Part shown: one piece after another, positions 1-3,994 of the stretch | Layout of the letters: each line of letters opens with the position of its first letter | Numbering within the stretch: position 1 is the stretch's first letter | Assembly (NCBI GenBank): GCA_019306185.1 | Contig: JAFDMD010000011.1 | Span: forward strand, 1-32,040 | From: Deltaproteobacteria bacterium | GTDB taxonomy: Bacteria; Desulfobacterota; Desulfobacteria; Desulfobacterales; JAFDMD01 | Length of the DNA: 32,040 nucleotides | Direction of reading: 5' to 3' | The notes under the pieces: model-generated | Databases searched by the model: none | The model's input: the letters and a program-made list of their open reading frames with translations, nothing else | Told to the model about the DNA's origin: nothing | Translations under genes and position numbers: made by a program

Positions 1-49
1 TATCCCTAAACTTCGACCATTTCTCATTATTGAGCATTAGTCGAACCAT
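1..49 (-). CDS. IS5-like transposase, N-terminal 16 codons only (partial)
   Basis: Reverse complement reads ATG GTT CGA CTA ATG CTC AAT AAT GAG AAA TGG TCG AAG TTT AGG GAT. Confidence 0.55.
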   Translation of the reverse strand, partial: MVRLMLNNEKWSKFRD

Positions 50-143
50 CGCAATCTCGTTATTATTTTTATATGTAAAAAAAAATAATTTACAAAATCG
101 CGATGGTATTTCAAGCTGTTATTCCGAAAATGTCAACAGCCCC
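1..143 (-). mobile_element. Right-hand edge of an insertion sequence (IS5-like), running off the window's left edge
   Basis: Minus strand from 49 encodes MVRLMLNNEKWSKFRD..., resembling the N-terminus of IS5-type transposases (M.RLML.DE.WSKL...). The Mod reading frame resumes right after CAGCCCC|TAG at about 143-146, suggesting the IS terminus with a TA/CTAG-type target. Boundary approximate. Confidence 0.65.
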
Positions 144-1449: not shown

Positions 1450-3994
1450 ATGCCCCTATTTTTAAAAGAATATCAAAAACGATGCGTTAAAGCTATGGAT
1501 AAGTATTTTGATAAGCTTAAGGAGGAAAAGGAAAAGTTTGACGCTATTCCCATTGAATATCAAGCCGACATTATAGACTATAATAAAAAAGTATGGGAAA
1601 CGATTATTTCCGAAAACAAATATTATAGCAAAAAAACCGGACACGGCAAATGGGCGCCGAATTTCTGTTTGAAAATTCCTACGGGAGGCGGTAAAACCAT
1701 TCTTGCTATTAGATCTATAGAATTTTTTCAAAAATATGTCGCGAAAAGAAAAACAGGGCTTATTTTATGGGTTGTTCCGAGCGAGCAGATTTTTAGCCAA
1801 ACTTTTAAAGCGCTTGATAATCGCGCTCATCCTTACAGGGAAGAACTGGACTTTATAAGCGGAGGAAGAGTCTTAATAAAAAAAAAGGGATGAATTTTCT
1901 CCGCAAGACGTTAAAGAAAATTTGGTTATTCTTATGATGATGCTACAATCTTTTTCCAGAGATAAGCTTAAAAAGGAGGATTTGAAATTTTTTCAAGACA
2001 ACGGAGCGTTTCCGGAGTTTTTTCCCGCAGAAACAAATAAGGTAAAACAGGAGGGGCTTTATAATCTTTATCCTAATCTTGATTTGGAAAGCAAAAAAAG
2101 CGATCTGTTGGGAATACAAATAAAAACCTCTTACGGTAATGTAGTAAAGCTATTGGAACCCTTTATGATTTTAGACGAAGGGCATAAAGCAAAATCTAAA
2201 ATAGCCGAAAAAGCGGTTTCCCAATGCAACCCAGCCTGCATATGCGAACTTTCCGCCACTCCGCATGAAAAATCTAATATTCTTTTTTCGGTTGTCGGAA
2301 GAGAACTTGCAGACGAAGAGATGATTAAGCTTGACCTTAATATTATAGAAAAGAATAAGGGCGAATGGAAAAGGATAATAGATTATACGGTTGAAGAGTT
2401 GGATAAACTTCAAAAAGAGGCTGATTTATACTTAAAAACAACAGGCATATATATTCGCCCGACAAGTCTCATACAGGTTGAGGCGACAAGCGCAAAAACA
2501 AAGGACGGCGTAAAAATTCATTCGGACGACGTTGCCGATTATCTTATGGAAAAAGGTATTGCGAAAGATCAAATAGCTATAAAAACAAGCTCTAAAAATG
2601 AGATTGAAGGGATTGATCTTTTATCGAATATTTGCCCTGTACGTTTTATTATTACAAAACAGGCGCTTCAAGAGGGCTGGGACTGCCCTTTTGCTTATAT
2701 TTTAACCACTCTTGGCGGCTCCCGTTCTTATACCGCTTTAACTCAGATATTGGGCAGGGTATTGCGTCAGCCTTACGGAAGAAAAACAAGGGTAAAAAGT
2801 CTTGACGAAAGCTATGTGCTTACCTTTAGGCAATCTTCCAAAAAGCTTTTAAACGCTATTAAAAAGGGTTTTGAATTGGACGGCATGGGAGATATGATAA
2901 ATAGAATAAACTCTCCTTTTATAGACGGCGATTTGGGAAAAAAAGAGAAACAGGTTATACGAAACAAAATTTTTGAAAAAAGCTTAGTAGATTTTTTTCT
3001 TCCGGCATTTGTAGTAAAAGATAAAAGATGTAAAGATAAAATAAGAATAATAGATTTTAATAAGGATATTTTGCCTTATATTGATTTTGATAAAATAGAT
3101 TTTTCCGGTTTAAATGATGTTGTTTTGCCGAAACAAGCCGATAAAACAAATATTACCGCTTTAAGATTTGCCAAACAGGAGGCTGTAGATAAAGAGGATT
3201 TTTTGGAAATAGAAAGGGTAAATAAAGAGATTGAAACTTCGAGGCAATGGAAAAAAAGTTTTTTTGTCCGAAATATAGGCGATTTTGTTCCTAATCCGTG
3301 GGTTGCAAACGAGGTTGTAAATAAGTGGTTAAAAATTTTAAAAGAAAAATTTACAAATAAAGATATTGCGACTCATCAGATTTATCTACTGGAATATATA
3401 AGAAAAATTTTGGCGGGCTATGGTTCCAAAGAAGGAGAAATAAACAGACTGGCAAGAGAGGTTTTTGAAACAAGGCTTAAAAAGGATGAAATTCGATTTG
3501 TAGTAAAATTTGATTCTACAATATTAACAAAGGAGTTTTATTTTAGAAAAGAAAAAAATATGGCGTTTGTTAGCAAAAGTCTTTTTAAACCGGAATTTAT
3601 GAAAGATTATAACCGATTGGAAGAGGATGTAATATATGATATTGATAAAAAAGAGAATACTTTTTGGCAGTATAGAAATAAGCCGAATAAAAAGAATTAT
3701 TTTCTTACAACATGGCGAAAAGAGGAATTTTATCCGGATTTTATTTTAACTTTAAAAAACGGGAATGATAATAAATTTGAAAAAATTTATGTTTCGGAGG
3801 CAAAAGGGTCTCATCTGTTAGGCGGACTTGATACGGATTATAAAAAGGAGCTTATAAGGATGTATAATAGAAATATTCAACAAGGCTGGAACAGGGTTGT
3901 GAAAGAGGAATATAAAAAAATAGAATTGGAGTTTGTAGAAGAGGGCGCATGGAAAAATAAACTCAATAAAATTTTTCTTAATAGCGAAAGATAG
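1450..3994 (+). pseudogene. Type III restriction subunit (Res, SF2 helicase/nuclease), split by a frameshift
   Basis: ORFs 1450-1893 (frame 1; Walker A IPTGGGKT) and 1922-3994 (frame 2; LDEGHK, GRVLRQPYG) join if one A is removed from the A9 tract at 1878-1886. The downstream frame is open right up to that tract (..DEFSPQDVKENLVILMMMLQS). Confidence 0.85.

Follow-up and report, generated by a model that had tools for sequence, protein, structure and literature searches.

A predicted hairpin that may hide the transposase start codon of an IS5-family insertion sequence in read-through transcripts

Transposase control by hiding the start codon in incoming transcripts is textbook knowledge for IS10 and IS50. 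In IS10 of Tn10, a member of the IS4 family, an inverted repeat lies around the mRNA start; the transcript that begins outside is folded, and the one that begins inside is open. In IS50 of Tn5, also of the IS4 family, the start region is said to be sequestered in read-through transcripts. A second promoter of IS50 gives rise to an inhibitor protein (PMC4265352). In IS200 (IS200/IS605 family), a stem-loop occludes the ribosome-binding site, and the element is protected from impinging transcripts (PMC3196728); of its two structures, one terminates incoming transcripts and the other occludes the ribosome-binding site.

Here we analyzed an insertion sequence (IS) at the start of a 32,040-nt stretch of contig JAFDMD010000011.1 of a Deltaproteobacteria bacterium (the window). 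As in IS10, one arm of an inverted repeat is situated at the ribosome-binding site, but the two elements belong to unrelated IS families, and an antisense promoter is unsupported here. Its transposase family is also unlike that of IS50. Compared with IS200, the present IS has a single stem, the 5' arm of which lies outside the predicted native mRNA, and a DDE transposase, whereas IS200 uses HuH single-strand transposition. ISPa67, ISSpu10, ISAba31, and similar IS5-family elements have a transposase of the same family, the same terminal repeat and TA target, and a leader built alike, but their arms and loops differ in sequence from those of the present IS, and the exact overlap of the stem with the ATG also differs. 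Covariation, the placement of the promoter, and a sister clade that lacks the hairpin indicate that the same control solution may operate in a widespread IS5-family group, including elements on resistance plasmids. A search of the open-access literature returned no report of such control for IS5-family elements, which is weak evidence of novelty.

The minus strand of window positions 143–1 is the left, regulatory end of an IS5-family insertion sequence (DUF4096), with the following features.

145–144: TA target dinucleotide, adjoined by the start of the IS at 143.
143–131, minus strand: left terminal inverted repeat, GGGGCTGTTGACA here and GGGTCTGTTGACA in most copies, with a sharp loss of similarity beyond.
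114–109, minus strand: predicted -35, TTGAAA, the best-scoring one, as far from the IS end as the TTGATT-like -35 is in the ISPa67-like group.
107–92, minus strand: hairpin 5' arm, ACCATCGCGATTTTGT, which doubles as the spacer of the predicted promoter.
95–68, minus strand: TTGTAA (95–90) and TATAAA (73–68), a weaker promoter-like pair outside the conserved place.
92–87, minus strand: predicted -10, TAAATT (TAAGTT in some copies), at the start of the loop, where the relatives have a conserved TAnnnT.
91–61, minus strand: loop of 31 nt, with a possible 9-bp upper extension (89–81 with 70–62).
60–45, minus strand: 3' arm of the hairpin, ACGAGATTGCGATGGT, containing a weak Shine-Dalgarno-like GAG and the start codon.
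49–1, minus strand: 5' end of the transposase gene (MVRLMLNNEKWSKFRDI...), which is truncated by the contig end.

The ends of the IS were delimited by comparing its copies. About 33 places in the same genome carry it, mostly at contig ends, as would be expected of a repeat that breaks an assembly, and these copies agree inward from GGG(T/G)CTGTTGACA and diverge outside. The right end of another copy reads TTA and then GGGTCTGTTGACAATT, and GGGTCTGTTGACA is present at both ends of the IS, as in the terminal inverted repeats of the IS5 family. Of the 72 complete relatives, 69 have a TA at either end, the pattern of a TA-type target duplication, here observed in the relatives. The frame opened by the ATG at 49–47 extends to 92 residues in the sister copy L031, the longest one; these residues match PF13340 (DUF4096, IS4/IS5 transposase; E = 2.5e-22). 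The transposase is 63% identical to that of ISPa67, an IS5-family element, which places it in the DDE IS4/5 group; fragments of its C-terminal part, and right ends with GGGTCTGTTGACAATT, occur at other places of the genome, and the catalytic part was read piecewise. Residue 1 of the full-length plasmid relatives is the same ATG, so the start codon assumed in the initial annotation is the start used throughout the family.

The hairpin had been described in that annotation as a 16-bp stem of 13 Watson-Crick and three G-U pairs (107–92 with 60–45) closing a 31-nt loop, with the ATG inside the 3' arm, and each of these details was reproduced exactly. RNA folding of the minus strand from 160 to 1 returned this stem together with the 9-bp upper extension, at -46.7 kcal/mol versus -25.75 kcal/mol in shuffled sequences (z = -6.55; 0 of 200 shuffles reached this stability). 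Each of the 30 own-genome copies that were examined retains either all 16 pairs or 15 of them. Their 5' arm variants, ACCATCGC[A/G]AT[C/T]T[C/T]GT, each pair with ACGAGATTGCGATGGT, giving stems that range from a perfect 16 bp to 13 pairs plus three G-U; a few copies have a single mismatch in the 3' arm. We rejected an intrinsic terminator on the sense strand, as no U run follows the 3' arm. A second hairpin just 3' of the ATG (UUCGACUA...UGGUCGAA) is predicted in the native mRNA, at 44–12 on the minus strand of the window and at the beginning of the coding sequence in relatives such as L080.

Relatives were collected by tblastn on plasmids, where transposases are up to 63% identical, and from viral contigs and other genomes; a search with a single protein found only distant relatives in genome contigs and none in viral contigs. 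The transposase tree comprises four groups: A (ISPa67-like), B (ISSpu10-like), C (Acinetobacter/Psychrobacter-like, with ISAba31), and M (Methylomonas-type). The present IS joins L114, a member of group A, and this placement is moderately supported (93/68). In the relatives, 79–96 nt usually separate the IS end from the ATG. The stem of group A stops one or two bases before the ATG, and the stems of groups B and C cover it. Arms as unlike as GCAAGCTCGTATCG/CGATACGAGCTTGC in L080, GGCATAGCAAC/GTTGCTATGCC in L195, and ATAGCGAGAAAGTAAA/TTTACTTCTCGCTAT in L086 all keep a stem at the ATG. Group M, the sister clade, has no start-codon stem and behaves as a negative control. These Methylomonas-type elements (L085, L113, and L167–L185) retain the terminal repeat, but their start-codon stem was either lost or never present; several of them carry a different small leader hairpin, TTGATTGAG...CAATCAA.

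Complementarity between the arms survives wide sequence change in three groups of relatives, which is the comparison on which the initial annotation had staked its proposal. In group A, 90% of the cells of the 10 pairs are paired, and two-sided changes occur at seven of these pairs, amounting to 18 cells versus 6.9 in shuffles. In group B, with eight pairs, the corresponding values are 90.6% and 16 versus 5.1. In neither group did any of 500 shuffles reach the observed number of two-sided changes; these counts are uncorrected for kinship, a bias corrected in part by sliding the partner by 1–3 columns, upon which only 21–38% (group A) and 22–41% (group B) of cells remain paired. Pairing amounts to 79 and 75% when arms are exchanged within a group and to 52% when they are exchanged between the two groups; alignment-based counts replaced a swapped-arm energy ranking, which was blurred because close relatives share arms. 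The 3' arm of group B is partly fixed by coding (ATGCC), which accounts for some of the invariant pairs, but not for the changing ones. Pure sense-RNA pairing predicts an excess of G-U over A-C, and no such excess was seen in groups A and B: group A has 0 G-U and 10 A-C cells, and group B has one and two, respectively. The own-genome copies have G-U at three sites and no A-C. The wobble shortfall could reflect antisense-strand pairing, constraint on the 3' arm by the ribosome-binding site, or a small number of independent events.

The position of the promoter relative to the 5' arm is a second property of the group. Scored with matrices that approximate E. coli sigma70, which may not be the values of the host, TTGAAA-16-TAAATT (114–87) ranks first in the leader and is the likely promoter of the present IS, with transcription predicted to start near 80. 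The combination of TTGACA in the terminal repeat with TGAAAT ranks second (score, 10.5), and its transcript would start near 101 and retain part of the 5' arm. The promoter suggested in the initial annotation, TTGTAA-16-TATAAA, is indeed present and would also yield a hairpin-free transcript, but it ranks fourth and is not the likely one. In an unguided scan of whole leaders, the best sigma70-like promoter puts the transcript start at -33 to -24, within the loop, in 24 of 31 hairpin elements, where 2.7 were expected. TATAAT is nearly invariant directly after the 5' arm in group B, and a -10-like hexamer occupies this position in groups A (yAnnnT) and C (TAnnnT). The TTGATT-like -35 of group A lies just outside the 5' arm, and the 5' arm is therefore a spacer of 16–18 nt; the -35 of group B is weak. 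By promoter prediction and alignment, a predicted start site in the loop is thus a conserved property of the relatives. The loops of groups A and B contain a conserved piece after the -10, TTTCGCCAAA or AAGNTCTNACMC, which is absent from the IS of the present genome and probably marks the transcript start.

The initial annotation had also called for folding of transcripts that start outside and at the internal promoter, and the predicted accessibility of the AUG differs between them as it had anticipated. With transcript starts taken from the -10, opening the region from -13 to +6 costs 24.5 kcal/mol in the read-through RNA of the present IS versus 5.9 kcal/mol in the native RNA. The costs for groups A, B, and C are 13.0, 13.3, and 14.2 kcal/mol in read-through RNA versus 4.5, 3.0, and 2.6 kcal/mol in native RNA, and those for the hairpin-less group M are 5.5 versus 3.2 kcal/mol. 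By computation, the ribosome-binding site and AUG are paired in read-through RNA and not in native RNA. When only the part upstream of the -10 was replaced with dinucleotide shuffles, at most 5 of 100 shuffles were as strongly structured in 24 of 31 hairpin elements, and this held for 0 of 9 elements of group M. The seven hairpin elements that fail this test are L082, L084, L090, L202, L091, L129, and L198; the transposase match of L090 consists of only two pieces, and this element may be decayed.

The stem and its place at the start codon, its compensatory conservation, the promoter-like placement, and the accessibility difference are thus computational observations. Given these, we consider, with a probability of about 0.73, that the hairpin locks the transposase start only in transcripts entering from flanking DNA. 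Transcription of the transposase gene would start inside the loop of the inverted repeat: the -35 would immediately precede the 5' arm, which would itself serve as the promoter spacer, and the -10 would open the loop. Because the 5' arm is then the spacer, a self-initiated mRNA would lack it and have an open start codon. A read-through transcript would carry both arms, and its stem would bury the ribosome-binding site and AUG, so insertion beside an active host promoter would not raise transposase production. The block of impinging host transcripts of the IS10/IS50 type that was initially suggested is therefore supported by prediction and comparison, and we infer from them the transcription start, the translation block, and its benefit to the element. 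If true, this would explain how such an element can insert beside active promoters without runaway transposition, and the relatives would supply a collection of naturally occurring arm variants.

An antisense RNA like RNA-OUT of IS10 is an unlikely explanation of the same repeat. An outward transcript would carry the mirror-image hairpin, the loop of which would pair with the transposase mRNA at its 5' end, and the effect on read-through transcripts might be a by-product, or both might act. IS10 RNA-OUT is a 69-nt antisense RNA that matches the mRNA start region over its first 35 nt (PMC5006887). Read on the antisense strand, an A-C cell of the sense strand becomes G-U, which suits the mispairs of group A, and the A run that precedes the 5' arm in Acinetobacter-type elements would give an antisense hairpin followed by a U run, resembling a terminator. 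In addition, the antisense reading of the conserved loop piece TTTCGCCAAA is UUUGGCGAAA, which resembles known kissing loops. However, the U run is not general, and an Rfam search yielded no family above threshold. In the first codons, sites resembling antisense promoters are no better than those that arise when the proteins are synonymously recoded (mean z, 0.25; sem, 0.14), a comparison that could miss a weak promoter, and synonymous variation at codons 2–10 is not reduced compared with other windows (observed/expected, 1.10). The sites cluster at coding nt 42, and the recoding test does not separate this cluster from the protein sequence. With the antisense promoter tests negative, the antisense RNA is accordingly a low-probability rival. 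It is rather unlikely that one palindrome has both functions across much of the IS5 family, closing the start codon in sense read-through transcripts and forming an antisense stem-loop RNA whose loop pairs with the native mRNA 5' end; if true, this would be a complete IS10 control module that evolved independently.

It is doubtful that the native promoter is instead TTGACA (136–131) with TGAAAT (113–108), which would place the hairpin in every transposase mRNA as a general damper of translation. Its score is the second best in the present IS, and TTGAC/TTGCC is conserved at the IS end, but a matching -10 is absent or weak in the relatives, where the loop promoter dominates; moreover, the TTGACA hexamer also occurs in the right terminal repeat and is therefore explained by transposase binding. 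That the repeat is a double-stranded DNA site, either an operator or a subterminal site bound by the transposase or by a host dimer, with incidental RNA pairing, is improbable. The repeat does straddle the -10 and the start site, as an operator would, and the lack of preference for G-U over A-C fits a DNA site. Nevertheless, identity between elements is only 55% in the outer 5' arm, although it is 82% in the terminal repeats, the transposase's own site; compensatory change preserves complementarity and not sequence; and an operator would not need the fixed position that the arms have relative to the start codon and the -10. A chance or mutational palindrome without function is highly improbable: the own-genome copies are near-identical and therefore cannot by themselves demonstrate selection on the stem, but the arms covary in groups of relatives and the structure lies far beyond that of shuffles.

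The surroundings of the IS and of its copies were also inspected. In the window, the IS interrupts a DNA methylase gene on the plus strand (144–1281; N6_N4_Mtase, PF01555, profile positions 93–215 only), and the helicase-like gene that follows the methylase is split into two frames (1450–1893 and 1922–3994); the restriction-modification system at the insertion site looks broken. In another contig of the same genome (C114), one copy of the IS lies inside another, at CTA within the first transposase codons (L018, 1–225). Short MITE-like derivatives, consisting of two facing terminal repeats about 115 bp apart, occur in G937:C123 (9794–9908) and G899:C298 (6524–6637).
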